Shown piece by piece: positions 33,780 to 44,005 of a DNA stretch of 64,000 bases. Source of the stretch: Lysobacterales bacterium 15-68-25 (GTDB lineage: Bacteria > Pseudomonadota > Gammaproteobacteria > Xanthomonadales > Rhodanobacteraceae); NCBI GenBank assembly GCA_002279065.1, contig NCKB01000004.1, forward strand, positions 186,001 to 250,000, read 5' to 3'. The number at the start of each line of letters is the position of its first letter. Positions within the stretch are counted from its first letter, which is position 1. The notes under the pieces were generated by a model, which saw nothing but the letters and a program-made list of their open reading frames with translations, had not been told where the DNA came from and did not search any database. A program made the translations under genes and the position numbers.

Positions 33780-34259
33780 CTACCAGCAGGTCGCGGGATC
33801 GGTCGCCCCGCGGGTGCCCGTCTGGTCGATCGAGAGGGTGCCGCATTGGGTGTCGGCCACCTGCCCATTCTGCGGTTGCGCCTGGATCGTGAACGAGGTC
33901 GCCGCCGAAGCCGGCACGTACTTGTAGCTGTCGCCGGTCTGCGAAGCAGACGCGCAATCCAGCATCGCCGGGTTCGCCGTGATCGGGTTCGCCGTGCCGG
34001 AGGCCGGATCCTTGTCGTAGCGAAGGTAGGTCGTGTAGTAACGCTCCATGTAGTTGGCGTACTCCGACAGGCAGGCCTCGGCGGCCACCCGGTGCGACCT
34101 GATGACATGCTTGCGGTACGCCGGCCAGGCGATGGCGGCGAGGATCGCAATGATCGCGACGACGATCATCAGCTCGATCAACGAGAAACCGCCAGTGGAT
34201 CGGCGATGCTCTTTCCAGACTAAATCCGCCGCAACAGCACTGCCAGAGCTCTGTTTCAT
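33780..34259 (-). CDS. pilE: Type IV pilus minor pilin PilE
   Basis: A 159-residue type IV prepilin. The prepilin peptidase site is G-FSLIELMIVVAIIAIL, with an unusually long 24-residue leader. The ATG is supported by AAGGATC just upstream, which overlaps the pilY1 stop. A C-terminal Cys pair (about residues 138 and 158) can form the D-region disulfide. It is expected in the initiating minor-pilin complex with FimT, PilV, PilW, PilX and PilY1. Last gene of the pilus operon. After it lie 102 bases before the kinase gene, with no clear terminator. Confidence 0.9.
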   Translation of the reverse strand: MKQSSGSAVAADLVWKEHRRSTGGFSLIELMIVVAIIAILAAIAWPAYRKHVIRSHRVAAEACLSEYANYMERYYTTYLRYDKDPASGTANPITANPAMLDCASASQTGDSYKYVPASAATSFTIQAQPQNGQVADTQCGTLSIDQTGTRGATDPATCW

Positions 34260-34267
34260 GGTGATCC

Positions 34268-37200
34268 TTACTGGTTGATCAGTTCACGCCAAGAGACACG
34301 CTTGAAACTATTGCCCGATCCGGACGTGTTGATCCAACTGTTACTGCCGTTGTCGAAACTGACCAGCATCGTCCCGCCAACGAAGATGGGATTGTTCGGC
34401 AGCGAAGTGAATCCGACACCCGCAGCCGGCGTACCGCCGACATTGTCGGAAGCGTTGATCTGACCATCCCCGTTGGTGTCGAAGAACGTCGATGACGGAT
34501 TGGTGCCAGTGAACGGATCAATCGCCATGATCCAGCCTCGACCAGACGGATTACACGGATCGACAGCCTCGGGGATACGTGTCGTACCAAGCAAGAGGCT
34601 GCCCTGGAACTGGTTGGGCGTAACCATGCGCTCGCCCTGCTGCACCTGAGCGTTACTGGTGCCGGTTGGAGAAAGCAAGTCGATATACCAGCCAGACTTG
34701 CCAGCAAGGGAGTTCGCACCGCTCAACGTGCTGACTGTCCGCGCCCCGAGGCTGCTTCCTGAGGCGGATGTCTCGGACGTGATGCTGCGCTGGGCAAGCG
34801 AAGAGCGTGTCTTCGTCGAGTCCACGGCCGGATTGGTGGTGCCACTCGACTCCACGATCAGGCCGTACCAGCTCTGCGTGCTGGTGTTGGAAAGATCGGA
34901 AGCGGTGAGGTATTTGCCGGTACCAAAGAACACCCAGAGATTCCCGCTCGTAGGGTCCTTGCCGAGCAGCATGCCCGCAGTGATGGGCTGCGGGTTGCTG
35001 CTCGCGTCCGTGGCGGTGTACATCAGCGTGGTGCCAGCGGAACTCGGTGTCGTGTAGGTCCCGTCGTTCAGCGTAAAGCGCCAGACATGGCCGTCCAAGT
35101 CGCCAGCGTATGCCTCCGTGCTCACATTGTTGCCGGCGGTGCCGATCCAGACAGCCGGCGCGGCGAGCCCCGTGGCGTCGGACGTCGAATAGACGCTTAG
35201 CGTGCCATTCTGGATATTGAACTGAAGCAGCGCCGCCTGCCCTGCTGCACTGTTGTACCCATTGCCAATGAGGACCGACCAGCTACCGTCAGCGGTTTGT
35301 GCCACGACCGGCTTTCCGGTCATCTGTCCGATGTAGTTGCTGTTGCTCAGACCGTCCGACGCCGAGCGCTCCCAAAGCAGCGTGATGTTCGACGGGTCGG
35401 TGATATCAAGCGCATAAATCGCCTTGGCGGTGCCTTTGCCCGTGGTTCCGACCAGAACGGTATGCCAGTTGCCGGAGTAATAAGCATCAGCGACAGTCAA
35501 CTCACCGTCATTGAAATACTGATGTGCCACGTCCGCGCCGTAATCCGGACTGGCCAAGTTGGACAACCCAGCCGTGATCACCGCTCCCGGCAAGTACGCA
35601 TAAGCCTCCGCACCTGTGCTGGCATTGAACCCGTGAAGCATACCGTCATTGGCCGCGACATAGATCATGCCGGTGCGGCTGGTGTTGTTGCTCGCATACG
35701 TGGAAAAGGAACTCGACCCCGTGAAGGTCGATGTATAGAACTGGTTGGGATCCGGGGCCCCCACATACACCGGCTGCGAATCGACGATATCGCCCAGCGG
35801 CGTGTCACGATTGCGATAACTTCCGCCATTGGCCTGGGAGTTCGAGGCATCGCCACGCAGATAATTGATCATATTGGCCTGCGCGGTGGCCCCCGCACCC
35901 AACGCGTTCAACTGGGCAGCAGACAAGGCCGGCAACGTCCCGCTGTTCACCTTGAACGCAAGATAGGTGCCCGCTCCCGGGTTATAGGTATAGATGTTGC
36001 GGCTGGCTGCGGCCGGCAACGTGGATACCGCCGTCCAGTTCGGCGTGGTGGAAATGGCGCCAGTGGTCGAGTTGATCGAGAAGGCCTTGAGATCGCCCTT
36101 CCATTTGGCGGTGTAGTAATTCGCCTGATAGGCCATGGTCCCCGACTGCAACTGGGTCGAGTTCGCCGCGAGACTTGCGCCGGTACCCACTCGCTCGGCT
36201 GCACGCTTGAGCGCGTCCTTCAGGCCACTGGAGAACGCCTCCGGGCTGGTCGCGGAATAGAACCCGCCATGGCCGTTCACGGCTGCATGTGCCAGGTCGG
36301 CAATGTTGTAGATGCTGTCTGCGGAAGGTTGCGGCCAGCTGAAATTCTTGATGGCGGTACCACCGTTGGCCCAAGCGAAAATCTGGTCGATTGTGGTGCC
36401 TGACGGGTTGATACCAGTCGGCGTGAATCCCAATCCCAGGGTGAAGGTCGTCATGTGCTGCCAGAAGGCTGGATCCTCCGTACTGGTCGGCACCTCGTTG
36501 CTGGTGCTCGGGCGCAGGTCGCTCTCCCAGTACTTCATTGCAACGTCGGCAAGGGTATTGCTGTAGGAATCGGAATACGGGGCCGCCGCGGTGTAGGTGT
36601 AACTCTGGCTGTTGGGCCCCGTCACCTTCGTTCCGTTGGTGCCATCTGCATTGCCCGGCCCGCCGCTGAGCGACCCGTTCCAGAAGCCGTCCGTAGTGAG
36701 GATGGTGTACGCCTGTCGGCAAGCCAACTCGCTGGTGTCCATCGGGTTCGGGTCGCTGGACATGGTCGACCAGGGCTGCGAGGAGCCGTAGTACTGGCCC
36801 ACAGCATCCAAGGAACTGCGCAGCGGGGTGCTGTTGTTGGCATATATGTTTGCCACCCAGTTCCAGAAGTAGGCCTTCTGGGTGCCGGACGAGCCGTCGC
36901 CAAACGGCGCAACCTGGGCAATGTACTTGCCGTTGTAGCTGGACGTGTAGTTCCCGGTGGCGCGAACGCCAGTGGCATTGTTGTTGTTGATCGAGCCGAA
37001 GCCAACCCGGAACGAAGGACTAATCCCGACGAACGAATTCATCAGGCCGGTCTTCGCCATCAGGATGCGCGTATGGTAGTAAGAGAACCAGTTGGCGACA
37101 TTCTGCTGACTCGCAGCACTGTCGTCGCACACCGCCTGTTGAGCGGAAGTCAGCACCGAGCAGTCCCCGGTCGCTCCAATGTAGTGCTGCGTGTAGGGAC

Positions 37201-37900
37201 CGCCAGGAACACCGGTCGTATAGGTGAAGAAATACTTGTAGTTGGTTTGGGTGCTCTGGCATACGTTTCCGGAAACGAGGGTGTCACCGGAATTGCACAT
37301 GTAAGTGGGTGCGTAGTAGCTGTAGGTCCAGCCATACTTTCTTGACCAAGTCGCGTGCTGGCACTGCCCACTGTAGGTGCCGCTAGTAACGAGCGTGTCG
37401 CCAGAATTGCATCCAAGCGTCGCGTTGTAGGTGGTGGTGGCCTGGTAGGAAAGCCGCGTGTAGTAATTGAAATTTCCGCTATACCGGGTCACGTCTGTGG
37501 CCGTGGTGTCGGTAAATCCATCCGCATACGCATTGGTCAATCCGGGCGAATTGGGATACGACGTGCCATCGGCGTGCGGGGGCGGCGTGTAGGTGACACT
37601 CGGGTTGTAATAAATCTGATTTACCAGGTGATTCCGGACGCCGTCCGCGCTGGTGTCGGACAGATAGCCCCAATCGGGCATGAAGTCCCACGCCATCGAA
37701 CCCGAATCGTCGAGCATCAGGACAATGTTCGGCGGCAGCGAAGCCTGCACGATCAGGGGCGCCGTGTCGATCGTCACCGTCGTGGCGGCGGCGTTGCTCG
37801 GCGCACAGAGCATGCCTATGCCGCAGACAGCTAGGCTTGTATACAGCAATCTGCCGAGGAACCCGTATACCTTGCTGCACAGACGTGAAGTGATATTCAT
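34268..37900 (-). CDS. pilY1: Type IV pilus tip adhesin / biogenesis factor PilY1
   Basis: A 1210-residue secreted protein with a signal peptide (about residues 1-38). A von Willebrand A-like N-terminal domain carries the MIDAS motif DDSGSM (about 64-69), and the C-terminal half is a PilY1 beta-propeller. An EF-hand-like loop DTNGDGQINASD begins at residue 1141, matching the calcium-binding loop of PilY1 that controls pilus retraction. An RGD triplet occurs in NYLRGDASN. PilY1 caps the pilus, mediating adhesion and surface sensing. The gene is noticeably richer in A/T and in Ser, Thr, Asn and Tyr codons than its neighbours, typical of a fast-evolving surface protein. Confidence 0.92.
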   Translation of the reverse strand: MNITSRLCSKVYGFLGRLLYTSLAVCGIGMLCAPSNAAATTVTIDTAPLIVQASLPPNIVLMLDDSGSMAWDFMPDWGYLSDTSADGVRNHLVNQIYYNPSVTYTPPPHADGTSYPNSPGLTNAYADGFTDTTATDVTRYSGNFNYYTRLSYQATTTYNATLGCNSGDTLVTSGTYSGQCQHATWSRKYGWTYSYYAPTYMCNSGDTLVSGNVCQSTQTNYKYFFTYTTGVPGGPYTQHYIGATGDCSVLTSAQQAVCDDSAASQQNVANWFSYYHTRILMAKTGLMNSFVGISPSFRVGFGSINNNNATGVRATGNYTSSYNGKYIAQVAPFGDGSSGTQKAYFWNWVANIYANNSTPLRSSLDAVGQYYGSSQPWSTMSSDPNPMDTSELACRQAYTILTTDGFWNGSLSGGPGNADGTNGTKVTGPNSQSYTYTAAAPYSDSYSNTLADVAMKYWESDLRPSTSNEVPTSTEDPAFWQHMTTFTLGLGFTPTGINPSGTTIDQIFAWANGGTAIKNFSWPQPSADSIYNIADLAHAAVNGHGGFYSATSPEAFSSGLKDALKRAAERVGTGASLAANSTQLQSGTMAYQANYYTAKWKGDLKAFSINSTTGAISTTPNWTAVSTLPAAASRNIYTYNPGAGTYLAFKVNSGTLPALSAAQLNALGAGATAQANMINYLRGDASNSQANGGSYRNRDTPLGDIVDSQPVYVGAPDPNQFYTSTFTGSSSFSTYASNNTSRTGMIYVAANDGMLHGFNASTGAEAYAYLPGAVITAGLSNLASPDYGADVAHQYFNDGELTVADAYYSGNWHTVLVGTTGKGTAKAIYALDITDPSNITLLWERSASDGLSNSNYIGQMTGKPVVAQTADGSWSVLIGNGYNSAAGQAALLQFNIQNGTLSVYSTSDATGLAAPAVWIGTAGNNVSTEAYAGDLDGHVWRFTLNDGTYTTPSSAGTTLMYTATDASSNPQPITAGMLLGKDPTSGNLWVFFGTGKYLTASDLSNTSTQSWYGLIVESSGTTNPAVDSTKTRSSLAQRSITSETSASGSSLGARTVSTLSGANSLAGKSGWYIDLLSPTGTSNAQVQQGERMVTPNQFQGSLLLGTTRIPEAVDPCNPSGRGWIMAIDPFTGTNPSSTFFDTNGDGQINASDNVGGTPAAGVGFTSLPNNPIFVGGTMLVSFDNGSNSWINTSGSGNSFKRVSWRELINQ

Positions 37901-37971: not shown

Positions 37972-38586
37972 CTACTGTTGTTTAACCATCCCTTGAAGCG
38001 TCACCACCGCGCGAGTGCCGACCGCCGAGGGATCCGCACTTCGCGCGGTAATTCGGTAGTAGATCGCAGTGGTAGATGCACCTTGGGCGCCGTAGTTGTG
38101 TGCGTTTGCACTCTGGTTGTACCCCGTGTTCGAGGACGGATCGACCCAGTTGCCCATGTTTTCCACGACGAACTGCGGGGCACTGCCATTGACACTCAGA
38201 CTCGAAGTGATGAACTGGCCAGACCCGGTTCCGCTGACCACCGTCTGATAGGCGCTCGGTGGGACATTCGGATCGGTGAAGGGATTGGCAAGACACACCA
38301 CGCCGCCCGCCGCGCAGTTGCGCGCGATGACTCCGGGATTGTTCGGGATCAGATCCGCCGCCGCGCGCATCGCTGCCTCCGCAGCCTGGAACTGCAGGGA
38401 GCGGTCGTACATGTTCGATGCCATCTTCTGCTGCATGATCGTGCCGCGCACGGCGGCCAGCCCGACCAGCGAGATGATCACCAGCAGAAGCAACGCCACT
38501 ACCAGCGCGATGCCGGACTGCCGGTGAACGCCCTTCCCTCGCTGGCGGGTAAACGTGACGTAAGACATCGAGCCGTGCCTGTTCAT
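37972..38586 (-). CDS. pilX: Minor pilin assembly protein PilX
   Basis: A 204-residue pilin-like protein. The N-terminus RQSGIALVVALLLLVIISLVGLAAV has a prepilin cleavage Gly but no Glu at position 5 of the mature protein, as is usual for PilX/GspK-type tip components. QFQAAEAAMRAA after the helix is typical of PilX. Start at 38586 lies one base after the pilW stop. Between it and pilY1 are 71 bases without a recognisable gene. Confidence 0.9.
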   Translation of the reverse strand: MNRHGSMSYVTFTRQRGKGVHRQSGIALVVALLLLVIISLVGLAAVRGTIMQQKMASNMYDRSLQFQAAEAAMRAAADLIPNNPGVIARNCAAGGVVCLANPFTDPNVPPSAYQTVVSGTGSGQFITSSLSVNGSAPQFVVENMGNWVDPSSNTGYNQSANAHNYGAQGASTTAIYYRITARSADPSAVGTRAVVTLQGMVKQQ

Positions 38587-38587
38587 G

Positions 38588-39616
38588 TCATTGCACCCGG
38601 TTGCGGATGGTGGTGGTCGCCGTGAACGACCTCGCAATCGCTTTGGCATTGGTGCCGGCGCGCTTGTCGGTGCTCTCCATCTTCAACGTCACGCGTACCG
38701 CGTCCACCGCGCTCCAGTCGGTGACGCCGGTCGCCGGCACGAAGTTCGTACCGTTCTTCATGTGGTACTGAATCGTCATCGAGGTGACGTCACGGACCAT
38801 TTCCTGCCTGGGCGTCGTGATGGTGGTGCCGTCGTTGCTGATCGACACCAGGTAGAGCGAGGTGCCACCCAGTGGATTGACGCCGATGTACCAGTCTTTC
38901 GCCGTAAGCAGCGCGATCTGCGAATTGGGACCGTATTCGTAAGCATTGCCGTTGGTGGTGCAGACGGTGGGGTAACCAAGGCCCTTGGAGCAATTGCCGA
39001 TCGACCCGGAGCCGGCGCCCGAGTTGTGCACCACGGTCTTGTTGGTGCTCTGGTAATTAGTGACCTGCAGGATTGCCGAGTGGTCCGGGTCGCACACCAC
39101 GATGATGTCGTTGTCGTGCAGGTCGGTGGTCGTCTCGTTGATCTTGAAGTTGGCGGCGTTGATGCGCTGGTTGACCGTGAGACCGAGGTCGCCGGCACCG
39201 ATCAGCTGCAGCGAGTCGGAGTTGGCGGCGCTCGACCGATCGCCGGGAGACGTGCCGAACGCGACTGCCGGGTCGACCTGCGACGGCCCGTAGCCGTGCA
39301 CGGCGTTGTTCCAGTCGGTGTACCACTGGGCCGTGGGGTTGGTTAGGACGTTGGCCACGCGGCCATTGTTGTTGCACCCGGTCAGACCGGCGTCACGGAT
39401 GTCTCTTGCCATCAGCTCGAACGCGATGCGCGCACCGTCCTGGACATCCGCGATCGCCTTGTTGGTCGCGTAGGAGCGCTGGCCGGCGATGAACACGCTG
39501 ACCACGCCACCGATCACCACCAGGCCGAGCAGCATCGCGATCATCAGCTCCACCAAGGTAAAGCCCCCCGCCCGCCGCATGGCGCGTCGACTCGAATGCT
39601 TCGGCTGGAGATTCAC
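38588..39616 (-). CDS. pilW: Minor pilin PilW
   Basis: A 342-residue prepilin-like protein. A 17-18 residue basic leader precedes G-FTLVELMIAMLLGLVVIGGV, with Glu5 present. It is long for a pilin, as PilW is, with the conserved DVQDGARIAFELMARDIRDAGLTGC segment. It is a component of the tip complex that primes pilus assembly. It overlaps pilV by four bases. Confidence 0.92.
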   Translation of the reverse strand: MNLQPKHSSRRAMRRAGGFTLVELMIAMLLGLVVIGGVVSVFIAGQRSYATNKAIADVQDGARIAFELMARDIRDAGLTGCNNNGRVANVLTNPTAQWYTDWNNAVHGYGPSQVDPAVAFGTSPGDRSSAANSDSLQLIGAGDLGLTVNQRINAANFKINETTTDLHDNDIIVVCDPDHSAILQVTNYQSTNKTVVHNSGAGSGSIGNCSKGLGYPTVCTTNGNAYEYGPNSQIALLTAKDWYIGVNPLGGTSLYLVSISNDGTTITTPRQEMVRDVTSMTIQYHMKNGTNFVPATGVTDWSAVDAVRVTLKMESTDKRAGTNAKAIARSFTATTTIRNRVQ

Positions 39617-40086
39617 AGGATCGCCCTCGTCATTACCTGCTGCTTGTCGCTGCCGCCGGCACCGGCGCGGCTATCGTCGAACTGGATCGTCACGGTGCAG
39701 TCGGTGCCGGTGCACTCCACCTTGCCGATGGTGTTTGACGAGGCGCCAAGGGGCGCGAGCTGGGTGCTGCACCACTCGTAGAGCTGCTGCTGCGCCAGGG
39801 TCACACCGGTGCCCGTGGGCGCGGTGCACGAACTGGCCGTCACGGTGCCGTTGTAGGCGCCGGCGTTGGCGGCACCGATATCGGCGCGCATCGCATCGAG
39901 GATGGAATAGCTGGCGATGGTCGCCATGCTCCGGGTCATCGCACTGTTGTTGGTGGACAGCGAGTTGGCCAGCAGCGCGGCGATGCCCAGGAAGGCGATC
40001 GACACGACCAACAGGGCGACCAGCACCTCGATCAGGCCAACGCCGCGCTGGCTGGATTGCTTCGCGTAACCGGAACGACGACTCAT
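39613..40086 (-). CDS. pilV: Minor pilin PilV
   Basis: A 157-residue prepilin-like protein with leader MSRRSGYAKQSSQRG and helix VGLIEVLVALLVVSIAFLGIAAL (Glu5 present). Four cysteines in the globular domain probably form disulfides. Start at 40086 overlaps the fimT stop (ATGA) and its stop overlaps pilW. It belongs to the minor-pilin priming complex. Confidence 0.9.
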   Translation of the reverse strand: MSRRSGYAKQSSQRGVGLIEVLVALLVVSIAFLGIAALLANSLSTNNSAMTRSMATIASYSILDAMRADIGAANAGAYNGTVTASSCTAPTGTGVTLAQQQLYEWCSTQLAPLGASSNTIGKVECTGTDCTVTIQFDDSRAGAGGSDKQQVMTRAIL

Positions 40087-40688
40087 GGGCAGGCCCTCGT
40101 ATCCTTGCCGACGGCGACGACCGATCCACCGGTGATCGAGATCACCCGGTGGTTGTCGGTGGTCAGCGCGCTGGTGCAGATGTCGGCGAGGACGTTGATG
40201 TTTGCGGGTGCGGAGGACCCGGGCACCCGCCCCAGTCCGTCGCCACCGTAGCGGATGGCCTGCACGTCGCCGTCCAGCTGGATACCGCCGGTGATCGAGG
40301 TGATGCCGGAGCGCACCTTGGTGGCAGTCGTGCCGGACCCGGTAGCCGTGGTCAACATGACCGCACCCACTTCGGTCCCGCATGCGCCGCCGAGCGTGCT
40401 GTTCGTGTTCACCGTGGCGGAATTGCTGCAGAACTGCGCGCTCGCGTTGGCCTTGATGGCCTCCATGCGTGCCGTGTTCAGCGAGGCGATGAGGTCATTG
40501 GCCGTGGTGTCCAGCCGGCTCGACAGCATGATGGAGCGGAAGCTGGGCACGGCGATCACCAGCAGGACCGCGGCCACGGCCAGCGTGATCATCAGCTCCA
40601 CGAGGGTGAAGCCGCGGGCGAACGACGCCCCGCGACCACGCACATCGAACCTGGCCGACTGGGTCGGCCGGAACCGGAAGACTCGCAT
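40083..40688 (-). CDS. fimT: Minor pilin FimT/GspH family
   Basis: A 201-residue prepilin-like protein with an N-terminal leader of about 26 basic residues, then G-FTLVELMITLAVAAVLLVIAVPSF and a GspH-like globular domain. FimT homologues in Xanthomonadales have been linked to DNA binding during natural uptake; no DNA-binding residues can be confirmed here. AGGGGG lies before ATG 40688. First gene of the fimT-pilVWX-pilY1-pilE operon. Two tandem AlgR-like sites lie upstream. Confidence 0.9.
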   Translation of the reverse strand: MRVFRFRPTQSARFDVRGRGASFARGFTLVELMITLAVAAVLLVIAVPSFRSIMLSSRLDTTANDLIASLNTARMEAIKANASAQFCSNSATVNTNSTLGGACGTEVGAVMLTTATGSGTTATKVRSGITSITGGIQLDGDVQAIRYGGDGLGRVPGSSAPANINVLADICTSALTTDNHRVISITGGSVVAVGKDTRACP

Positions 40689-40748
40689 GATTCCCCCTGA
40701 GTATTCAGGAGGCGGACGTTACCGTCCGGCAGAGCCCCCGGGGACATC

Positions 40749-40788
40749 CGGCCGACGAGCGGTGTCAAACGGCCGACGAGCGGCATCA
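40749..40788 (-). promoter_or_regulatory. Tandem 19-bp direct repeats with AlgR-like cores upstream of fimT
   Basis: Two copies of CGGCCGACGAGCGG followed by TGTCA or CATCA, with period 21 bp (40749-40767 and 40770-40788). On the fimT strand each contains CCGCTCGTC (40762-40754 and 40783-40775), one mismatch from the AlgR site CCGTTCGTC. They lie 66-95 bases before the fimT start. The second copy runs into the stop codon of the neighbouring GGDEF gene. A small hairpin CGGACG-TTAC-CGTCCG (40713-40728) lies between them and fimT. Confidence 0.55.
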
Positions 40789-42816
40789 GGGCGCCAGCGC
40801 ACTGTGACCCGGTTCAACCCTTGCCGTTTCCCTTTCGTCGCAGCCCTCGCCCGCCTCCTCCACCCGGTTACGGCCGGAGGCCTTTGCCCGGTAGAGCGCG
40901 CGATCGGCACGCTGGATCAACCTGTCCAGGTCGCGCTCGCCATGTTCCCGGGTGGCTACTCCGAGGCTGATCGACACCTGCCGCCCGGGCAGGATGTCGC
41001 CCAGGTCGAGCGCCTGCACCCGACGCCGCAGGCGTTCGGCGACGTCCCTCGCCACCTGGCGATCGGCGCGTGGCAGCAGCACCACGAATTCCTCGCCACC
41101 GATGCGCCCGATGCGGTCCTCCTCGCGAAGTGCGTCGCGGCAGGCCTCCACGATCCGGGTCAGCACCAGGTCACCGGCCTGATGGCCGCAGGCGTCGTTG
41201 ATCTGCTTGAAGTGGTCCACGTCCAGCACTACCACCGCCATCGACTCGTCGCGTTCGATCGCCTCGTCGAGCATCGGCTGGCCCAGATCCTCGATGCGAC
41301 GACGGTTGGCGATACCGGTCAGCGGATCGGTCATCGCCATCCGGTGCAGGCGCCGCGCGGCGCGAACCTGCCTCCGTGCCTGCCACAACAGCAGCACGAT
41401 CAGCAGGCCGCCCAGCACGATGGCCGCCCATTGCCAACGGCGGACCCGCTCGAGCGAGGCCAGTTGCGCGGACTGAAGTTGCCGGTCGGCGGCCAGCCTC
41501 CGGTTCTCCTGCTCCCGGCGCGCGGTGTCGAACTGATAGCTCATCAGTGTCGTGGTGAAGGAGCGGGCCTTGCGGTCCAGCGCTTCGTGGACCTTGATCA
41601 TCTCCTTCAGGTCCGCCAGCGCGAGCACCGTCTTTCCGAGGGCTTCGTAGCTGCGCGAACGCTGCTGCAGAAGATCGGCGTAGTAGCGGAGATTGCCGCT
41701 TTTGCGCAGGAACGCTTCGGACCGGTCGAAATCGCCGATCGCCTGTTCGTGCTCGCCAAGGCCGGCATGCGCCATGCCCTCCTGCAGCGCGATCATGTCA
41801 CCGTTGGAGCGGTCGCCCGAGATCTTCAGGCTAGCCTCCGCCCTGGCCAGCTCGGCCAACGCCCCAGTGTAATTTCCCCCAAGGTTGTCGACCTGGGCCA
41901 GCCCCAGATGCGCCGAGGCCTGCGTCGCGGCACTGTCGATCAGTTCGCCGATCCGCAGCGCCTCGGTGAAATGGCTTCGAGCCGAGGACAGCGCCGCCGT
42001 CTCGGACTCCACGTCCAGGAAGCCCAGTTGCATGTGGGCCGCCATCTGCTGGGGCAGGTCCTTGCGCTGGATCCCGTACTTCATGAGCCGATCGAGGTAT
42101 TCGCGGGCTTCCTTGCGTTCGCCGAGCCGCCGATAGGCGATCGCGATATTGAACAGGTTCTGCTCGCTCTCGACTTGCTCGCCGGTGCTGTCGTAGAACT
42201 TCTCCGCGTCGAGGAAATCCACCAGCGCCAGCGCGTGCTCGCCCAGCAGGGACTGCACCGAACCACGCCAGGTCAGGCCGTCTGCGACCAGCCGGTTGTT
42301 TTCCTCACGCCGGGCAATCTCGATGCCGGCGTTGTAGTCCGGCAGGGCATCCCGCGCCGTGGTGAGCGCCTCCTGATTGGCCCCCCGGCAGAAATGGAAA
42401 TTGACCTCGGCATCGGCGTAGCCGATCCGACGGGCATCCAGCAGTCCCTGCTCGGCATACGCCTTGCCGGCCGAGGGATCGTTATGGATGCCCAGGATGC
42501 AGTACATGTAGCGATAACGCAGCTCGCGCCGCGCATCGCCTGCCGGGATCTCGCTCCTGAGCCTTTCCAGGTCGCGCAGGGCGTCGGCATGGGTCGTGAT
42601 CACCACCTCGCCGCGTTCGAGCTGGTCGGCATAGCGGTCGAACGCCCCGGCACCTGCGCGGGAGCCTCCGTCCTGGGCCGCCGCAACGACAGGGACGAAC
42701 AGCGACATCGCCAGGATGTTTCTGAACCATCGCCAGTATGAGGAGGCAGGAGGCAAGTCGAATGCTCGGCTGAGGCCACTCCGTTGGCGCTGGGATGCGA
42801 TGTCTGTGTGCACCAT
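40786..42816 (-). CDS. TPR-repeat membrane diguanylate cyclase
   Basis: A 676-residue protein. An N-terminal hydrophobic segment (about 30-47, ending AAAQ) leads to a periplasmic region of helical tetratricopeptide-like repeats (about 70-400), a coiled segment, a membrane helix (WQWAAIVLGGLLIVLLLWQ, about 445-463) and a cytoplasmic GGDEF domain (about 485-650). The active site reads GGEEF and is preceded by REED (RxxD), so it should make c-di-GMP with product inhibition. The TPR part may sense a periplasmic protein. It lies immediately upstream of the pilus operon on the same strand, with 97 bases between. Confidence 0.9.
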   Translation of the reverse strand: MVHTDIASQRQRSGLSRAFDLPPASSYWRWFRNILAMSLFVPVVAAAQDGGSRAGAGAFDRYADQLERGEVVITTHADALRDLERLRSEIPAGDARRELRYRYMYCILGIHNDPSAGKAYAEQGLLDARRIGYADAEVNFHFCRGANQEALTTARDALPDYNAGIEIARREENNRLVADGLTWRGSVQSLLGEHALALVDFLDAEKFYDSTGEQVESEQNLFNIAIAYRRLGERKEAREYLDRLMKYGIQRKDLPQQMAAHMQLGFLDVESETAALSSARSHFTEALRIGELIDSAATQASAHLGLAQVDNLGGNYTGALAELARAEASLKISGDRSNGDMIALQEGMAHAGLGEHEQAIGDFDRSEAFLRKSGNLRYYADLLQQRSRSYEALGKTVLALADLKEMIKVHEALDRKARSFTTTLMSYQFDTARREQENRRLAADRQLQSAQLASLERVRRWQWAAIVLGGLLIVLLLWQARRQVRAARRLHRMAMTDPLTGIANRRRIEDLGQPMLDEAIERDESMAVVVLDVDHFKQINDACGHQAGDLVLTRIVEACRDALREEDRIGRIGGEEFVVLLPRADRQVARDVAERLRRRVQALDLGDILPGRQVSISLGVATREHGERDLDRLIQRADRALYRAKASGRNRVEEAGEGCDERETARVEPGHSALAP

Positions 42817-42910: not shown

Positions 42911-42986
42911 GCCGGAATAGCTCAGTTGGTAGAGCGGCGCATTCGTAATGCGTAGGTCGTAGGTTCGATTCCTATTTCCGGCACCA
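42911..42986 (+). tRNA. tRNA-Thr (anticodon CGT)
   Basis: A 76-base cloverleaf with encoded CCA. The acceptor arms GCCGGAA and TTCCGGC pair, the D-loop has AGCTCAGTTGGTAGAGC, the anticodon stem-loop GCGCATTCGTAATGCGT shows CGT, and the T-loop is GGTTCGATTCC. It reads ACG codons (threonine). It is followed by a strong terminator, so it is a single-gene transcript. No integrase or duplicated 3' end is seen nearby. Confidence 0.98.
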
Positions 42987-43048: not shown

Positions 43049-44005
43049 TCAGGCCGCAGCGGGGCCGTCGGCCAGGCGCAATTCCTTGGGCAAGGCGAAG
43101 GTGATGGTTTCCGGCTCGCCATCCAGCTCGCGCACGCTGCCGGCGCCCCAGGACTGCAGGCGGGCGATGACCTCCTTCACCAGCTTGTCCGGTGCGGAGG
43201 CACCGGCGGTCACCCCGATGCGGGTCACGCCGTCGAGCCACTCGCGGGCGATGTGTTCAGCGCCGTCGATCAGATGGGCTGGCACCCCCTGCTTCTCGGC
43301 CAGCTCGCGCAGGCGGTTCGAGTTGGAGCTGTTGACCGAGCCGACCACCAGCACCAGGTCGACCGCTTCGGCCAGCCGCCGCACGGCGTCCTGGCGATTC
43401 TGGGTGGCGTAGCAGATGTCGTCCTTGCGCGGCCCCTCGATGTCGGGAAAGGTTGCGCGCAGGGCCTCGATGATTGCCTTGGTGTCGTCCACCGACAGCG
43501 TGGTCTGGGTGACGTAGGACAGCTCGTGGGGGAACTTCGGCGCCAGCTCTGCCACCTGTTCCACCGATTCGACCAGCAGGATCTCGCCGGTGTTGGCCGG
43601 ATTCCACTGCCCCATCGTGCCCTCCACCTCCGGGTGTCCGGCATGGCCGATCAGGATCACGCTGCGGCCGATGCGGCCGAGTCTTGCCACCTCCATGTGC
43701 ACCTTGGTGACCAGCGGGCAGGTGGCATCGAACACCTTCAGCCCCCGCTGCTCGGCCTCGGTGCGCACGGCCTGCGACACGCCGTGGGCGCTGAAGATCA
43801 CCGTGGCGCCGTCGGGCACCTCGGCCAGTTCCTCGACGAACACCGCGCCGTCGGCGCGCAGCTTGTCCACCACGTAGCGGTTGTGCACCACCTCGTGCCG
43901 CACGTAGATCGGCGCGCCGTAGGATTCCAGAGCACGCTCGACGATGGCGATGGCGCGGTCGACGCCGGCGCAAAAGCCGCGGGGATTGGCGAGAAGGATG
44001 TCCAC
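43049..44005 (-). CDS. ispH: 4-hydroxy-3-methylbut-2-enyl diphosphate reductase
   Basis: A 318-residue iron-sulfur enzyme, the last step of the MEP isoprenoid pathway, reducing HMBPP to IPP and DMAPP. The three cluster cysteines are Cys12 (PRGFCAG), Cys96 (DATCPLV) and Cys198 ([10 protein letters not shown]). THE catalytic-region motif [10 protein letters not shown] is present. Last gene of the block ribF-ileS-lspA-ispH. The fkpB gene that often sits between lspA and ispH is absent. Confidence 0.97.

Follow-up and report, generated by a model that had tools for sequence, protein, structure and literature searches.

The promoter of the minor-pilin/PilY1 operon in the window, i.e., the whole 64-kb stretch of DNA analyzed here, is very probably a composite activator site for AlgR and a CRP-family protein. 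The genome carries the genes for AlgZ, AlgR and a CRP-family protein, and the corresponding sites stand before the operon in a fixed geometry that is conserved together with it. Judging from sequence comparisons, binding of AlgR and Clp would activate the operon. The elements of the promoter and the surrounding genes, all on the minus strand, are the following:

43049..44005, minus strand: ispH (lytB), syntenic neighbour
40786..42816, minus strand: gene of a TPR and GGDEF diguanylate cyclase, a neighbour that is not downstream of the site
40803..40818, minus strand: CRP/Vfr/Clp-type site GTTGAACCGGGTCACA, 2 mismatches to TGTGA-N6-TCACA
40775..40783, minus strand: AlgR/LytTR-type box 1 CCGCTCGTC (distal), near-invariant in the family alignment
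40763..40774, minus strand: 12-bp spacer GGCCGTTTGACA, initial GG invariant and centre A/T-rich in relatives
40754..40762, minus strand: AlgR/LytTR-type box 2 CCGCTCGTC (proximal)
40738..40743, minus strand: putative -35, CCCCGG, very weak, 10 bp after box 2; relatives have TTGACG or TGGCCG
40716..40721, minus strand: -10-like TAACGT, at the TAnnnT offset of the family
40083..40688, minus strand: fimT-like minor pilin (GspH domain; Pfam GspH/FimT), first gene after the site
39613..40383, minus strand: ORF with a pilV-type minor pilin (Pfam; methylated pilin in the PilV place), whose true start lies inside the ORF at MSRRSGYAKQ
38588..39616, minus strand: pilW (PF16074)
37972..38649, minus strand: pilX (PF14341)
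34268..37900, minus strand: pilY1 (PF05567)
33780..34259, minus strand: pilE/ComP-type minor pilin (PF16732)

Between ispH and the diguanylate cyclase gene there is a tRNA-Thr(CGT) gene at 42911-42986, encoded on the opposite strand.

The two boxes are found between the diguanylate cyclase gene and fimT-pilVWXY1E. The minus strand reads TGATG-CCGCTCGTCGGCCG-TT and then TGACA-CCGCTCGTCGGCCG-GATG, i.e., two copies of 14 identical bases with TGA two bases before each, and with a period of 21 bp. This repeat pair at 40754-40783 is real and above chance. No 14-base repeat within 40 bp appeared in 5000 dinucleotide shuffles of the intergenic sequence, and the pair is the sole repeat of this kind across the 64-kb window. 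The 9-mer alone is unremarkable, as CCGYTCGTC has 5 matches in the window vs 3.1 expected. By pattern search, CCGYTYGTC-N12-CCGYTYGTC occurs a single time in the 3.9-Mb genome, at the minor-pilin promoter. Pairs with two mismatches elsewhere in the genome numbered 15, vs 136 for the reversed control; they look like chance, and thus no wider regulon is claimed.

The common layout of LytTR targets consists of two 9-bp direct repeats, 12 bp apart and 10 bp upstream of the -35 (PMC6193735). The order here is a 9-bp box, 12 bp, a 9-bp box, 10 bp, a weak -35 and then a -10, with the transcript predicted to begin near 40709. The 9-12-9 arrangement at 40754-40783 has the sole period found across 29 relatives, and the 10-bp distance to the -35 is read from the family promoters, the window's own -35 being poor. 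In these 29 promoters, T[TG]G begins at +10 after box 2 in 16, and TAnnnT stands at +32/+33 in 20, with no other offset reaching 4; the two motifs would represent -35 and -10 elements at proper spacing. A consensus sigma-70 promoter was not found in the window, which, together with the poor -35, is as expected for an activator-dependent promoter. Also, CCGCTCGTC, present twice, is one pyrimidine off the published AlgR core CCGTTCGTC, for which a Kd of ~60 nM was reported at algD (PMC4064291), and AlgR would be the protein that binds the two boxes. The original prediction of tandem repeats with a 21-bp period on the pilus strand is thus borne out. It had counted paired AlgR-like sites; the boxes are indeed of AlgR type, but they are better read as a single LytTR dimer site than as two sites, and a third fixed part of the promoter, the CRP-type site, had been overlooked.

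FimT homologs were detected in 72 of the 147 genomes of Rhodanobacteraceae, the window's family, to which Rhodanobacter, Dyella and Oleiagrimonas also belong, and the family comparison covered 29 regions upstream of such homologs, the window's own included. A CCG[CT]TCGTC-like pair with the 21-bp period was found with 0-3 mismatches of 18 in 27 of them, the remaining two having 4 and 5. At ≤2 mismatches, 22 of the 29 promoters showed this period, and the remaining periods in the range 12-39 gave no pair in any of the 29. The controls on the same promoters (other strand, reversed sequence) were clearly worse, with 4-8 mismatches. A weight matrix was built from the 29 promoters and then scored on 20 held-out promoters, 19 of which reached 22-39 bits (reverse-complement and reversed controls ≤6.9); the exception, the region upstream of an additional fimT copy (L186), lacks the pair. 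The repeats were predicted to be kept in close relatives, and the pair is present in 3/3 same-genus genomes examined and, at the exact 21-bp period, in 48/49 Rhodanobacteraceae minor-pilin promoters, window included, counts which are not independent events because the genomes are related, although the spacers differ freely. Two fimT copies or minor-pilin operons were seen in several genomes (G065:C45, G024:C27, G119:C7, G073), the second copy having its own pair in G119, G024 and G073 and lacking it in G065.

A one-mismatch scan of the family gave a similar picture: 17 of the 20 loci examined stand directly before a pilin gene, mostly pilV, with FimT undetected there. These loci were chosen for holding the pair, so they are informative solely about which gene follows. 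In genomes without detected FimT, the pair is located ~65 bp before pilV. Thus, the promoter accompanies the operon regardless of which pilin gene leads it.

Other occurrences were also recorded. In one genus (L256, L258, L259, L262), unrelated genes are preceded by a recurrent one-mismatch pair and, after it, a stretch resembling TTGCGCTTGTTC; this is perhaps another target in that genus. Several relatives have pairs 2-4 kb apart (G099:C14:385905/387859; G135:C1:4765756/4767783; G124:C2:326344/328298; G091:C25:486311/490125), of which one precedes a LytS/AlgZ-type kinase-like membrane protein (L280) and the other a PD40/beta-propeller-like protein (L277). These pairs may mark an additional LytTR system that uses the same boxes.

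Exact pairs were also sought across 369 Gammaproteobacteria genomes, blind to gene annotation, which yielded 18 matches in 14 genomes. Ten of the 18, including that of the window, are directly before a type IV pilin gene, and for several of these the start codon comes 45-67 bp after box 2. At 80 named pilin loci, 7 of them from the matrix's own family, both strands of ~4 kb were scored with the matrix; in 28 of the loci the best match lay on the coding strand within the 350 bp upstream, whereas length alone would predict ~3. These upstream best matches include Thiohalobacter, Thiogranum and Kangiella, as well as weak ones in Acinetobacter, Stenotrophomonas and Xanthomonas. Together, the comparisons point to an old, shared on-switch, in which the AlgR-type pair and a CRP-type site keep a fixed layout before the pilus-tip operon of many bacteria, Pseudomonas included. 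The ispH gene adjoins the minor-pilin operon also in Pseudomonas and Acinetobacter (L134, L148, L157), which indicates that the neighbourhood itself is old.

Some exact pairs of the class scan have other neighbours. In another family of the order (G036), one is followed at a distance of ~500 bp by the gene of a large filamentous-haemagglutinin-like adhesin (L006), a hint that AlgR may have targets of a second kind. In two genomes of one genus (G498, G287), an exact pair precedes a lipoprotein gene with the same layout in both (L086, L095).

The original prediction called for a LytTR-type regulator, and the genome encodes three LytTR proteins. One REC+LytTR gene is preceded by an AlgZ/LytS-type kinase gene (RPHFLFNS and LQPLVENAVRHG boxes) and followed by hemC, and it is therefore identified by position as AlgR, so that this genome holds an AlgR ortholog. 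The algZ-algR-hemC order is that of Pseudomonas, in which algZR and hemCD are cotranscribed (PMC5790918). AlgR was found in 144/147 genomes of the family, and AlgR-like matches in 221/369 genomes of the class. It is unlikely that the pair is a genuine LytTR-type site bound by a LytTR regulator other than this ortholog. The two further LytTR proteins of the genome would be candidates, but no pair within 2 mismatches lies near their genes. Similar pairs are found near AlgR paralogs or kinase genes in some family members, and G287 has pairs while absent among the AlgR matches listed at E≤1e-25; against this, the core is the known AlgR consensus, and AlgR is near-universal where the site occurs.

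The stop codon of the diguanylate cyclase gene is 2 bp before box 1 on the same strand, which could suggest that the repeats are the 3′ end of that gene, as a terminator or an RNA element, instead of belonging to the fimT promoter. This is very improbable, as the pair keeps its place before pilin genes despite other upstream sequence and the boxes repeat in direct rather than inverted orientation, with a constant spacing to the -35/-10. The terminator or RNA reading was rejected on the basis of this conservation and of the lack of any terminator-like structure at the repeats. As for a neutral, functionless 21-bp tandem duplication, the near-identical side-by-side copies do resemble slippage when this genome is read alone, but such an origin has practically no chance of being right and is refuted by conservation, the same boxes and period recurring with different spacers at this promoter in other genera, families and orders.

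The composite promoter that we favor includes, in addition to the AlgR-type boxes, a CRP-type site. In the window, this site begins 35 bp before box 1, within the last codons of the diguanylate cyclase gene. TGTGA-N6-TCACA with ≤2 mismatches starts at -34/-35 from box 1 in 26/48 family promoters, and five more sites, at -24, -45, -45, -46 and -57, are close to whole helical turns away, which gives 31 CRP-type sites seen vs 0.68 expected from shuffling. The minor-pilin operon is thus preceded by a CRP-family-type site upstream of an AlgR-type site, as in the composite PfimU promoter. The closest CRP relative in the genome (L206) has 54% identity to E. coli CRP and keeps the recognition-helix residues and most cAMP contacts (G71, E72, R82, T127, S128). 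In the alignment, it carries a Glu at the position of E. coli Ser83, which we take to be equivalent to E99 of Clp. With this glutamate in place of a cAMP-contacting serine, the CRP protein of the genome looks like the Clp type, and Clp would be the protein that binds 40803-40818. In Clp, glutamate E99 marks the c-di-GMP-binding subgroup, and c-di-GMP represses the DNA binding of the protein (PMC10333796). Given this glutamate and the adjacent diguanylate cyclase gene, it is a fair hypothesis that c-di-GMP feeds into the minor-pilin promoter.

We propose the following mechanism. AlgZ/FimS would lead to phosphorylated AlgR, which would bind both boxes as a head-to-tail pair on the same face of the DNA helix. 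This AlgR pair, ending 10 bp upstream of the poor -35, would then recruit RNA polymerase to a promoter that by itself is weak. A CRP-family protein (Clp here, Vfr in Pseudomonas), bound to an upstream site fixed in helical phase, would add activation.

In P. aeruginosa, fimU is activated by both Vfr and AlgR, with Vfr half-sites whose centres are at -130 and -115 relative to the fimU ATG (PMC8787478). The original prediction had matched the boxes to AlgR sites of this promoter; the core stands, but CCGTTCGTC is the algD/algC/rhlA consensus, and the published P. aeruginosa fimU sites are degenerate (CCGTTTGGC, CCCTCGGGC; PMC4064291). According to the same paper, the AlgR sites of P. aeruginosa need not be repeats with a 12-bp spacing, for reasons called unclear. 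Our Pseudomonas comparison covered P. aeruginosa relatives among the sequences examined. In one genome of the same or a near genus (G660), the P. aeruginosa Vfr site recurs with a single substitution and is centred 123 bp from the start of FimU, and a 9-12-9 pair with 4 mismatches (CCAGTTGTC/CCGACCGTC) begins 33 bp after the Vfr core start. Eight further fimU-type promoters of the same genus have a TGCGA-N6-TCACA-like site exactly at -34 from a CCGRACATC-N12-ACGGTCATC pair, and three others have it at -57. In P. gingeri, the degenerate pair is followed by TTGTCT at +10 and TATAGT at +32. The Vfr-site string was found once at a fimU promoter (L209) and at two chance loci (L210, L211), and a joint search for the published fimU-ABS1/ABS2 strings matched only an unrelated locus (L185). 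Some points speak against the proposed reading: the Pseudomonas boxes are degenerate, with 4-7 mismatches of 18, the published ABS1 is downstream of the pair, and in the window the CRP-type site has 2 mismatches and the -35 can hardly be recognised. The matching order and spacing indicate that the layout is common to both orders and that the boxes drifted in Pseudomonas, and this shared geometry supports the regulatory link across orders that had been suggested.

The control of minor pilins by AlgR is already known from P. aeruginosa. The relatives studied here plainly show the 12-bp direct-repeat rule at the operon where the P. aeruginosa AlgR sites seemed exceptions (PMC4064291), and they reveal that the Pseudomonas-genus fimU promoter has a degenerate 9-12-9 pair at the corresponding position. 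No report of this composite promoter and its conservation was found in the literature searched, most subscription journals being outside it. The data allow the reading of DNA by AlgR to be tested directly by mutation, and they provide a motif with which its targets in many genera can be predicted. We tentatively consider it possible, though somewhat doubtful, that the composite promoter is ancestral in Gammaproteobacteria and that its DNA geometry was kept while the second messenger of the CRP-family protein changed, being cAMP with Vfr in Pseudomonas and c-di-GMP with a Clp-type protein in this family, where a diguanylate cyclase gene directly precedes the promoter. This would make it a candidate case of one promoter changing second messenger in evolution; if true, the PilY1 operon would be where c-di-GMP and surface signalling through AlgZ/AlgR come together.

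Compared with known systems, the site resembles the promoters of LytTR regulators such as AgrA, PlnC/D and S. mutans HdrR/BrsR, which have 9-12-9 repeats ~10 bp before the -35 (PMC6193735, PMC4064291), but the box sequence is different, the response regulator is proteobacterial and a CRP-type site is added. The AlgR sites of P. aeruginosa algD, algC and rhlA share the core but for the one pyrimidine, whereas they are described as single, far apart or in opposite orientation, not as 9-12-9 (PMC4064291). There is also a likeness with PfimU, where the same operon is preceded by AlgR- and CRP-family-type sites, with the centre of the CRP-family site ~123 bp from the ATG and a 9-12-9 pair 33-35 bp after its start. 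Unlike in PfimU, where the degenerate boxes were undescribed as a 12-bp-spaced pair, the boxes are near-perfect here, the first gene of the operon is FimT-like and the CRP protein looks like the Clp type.
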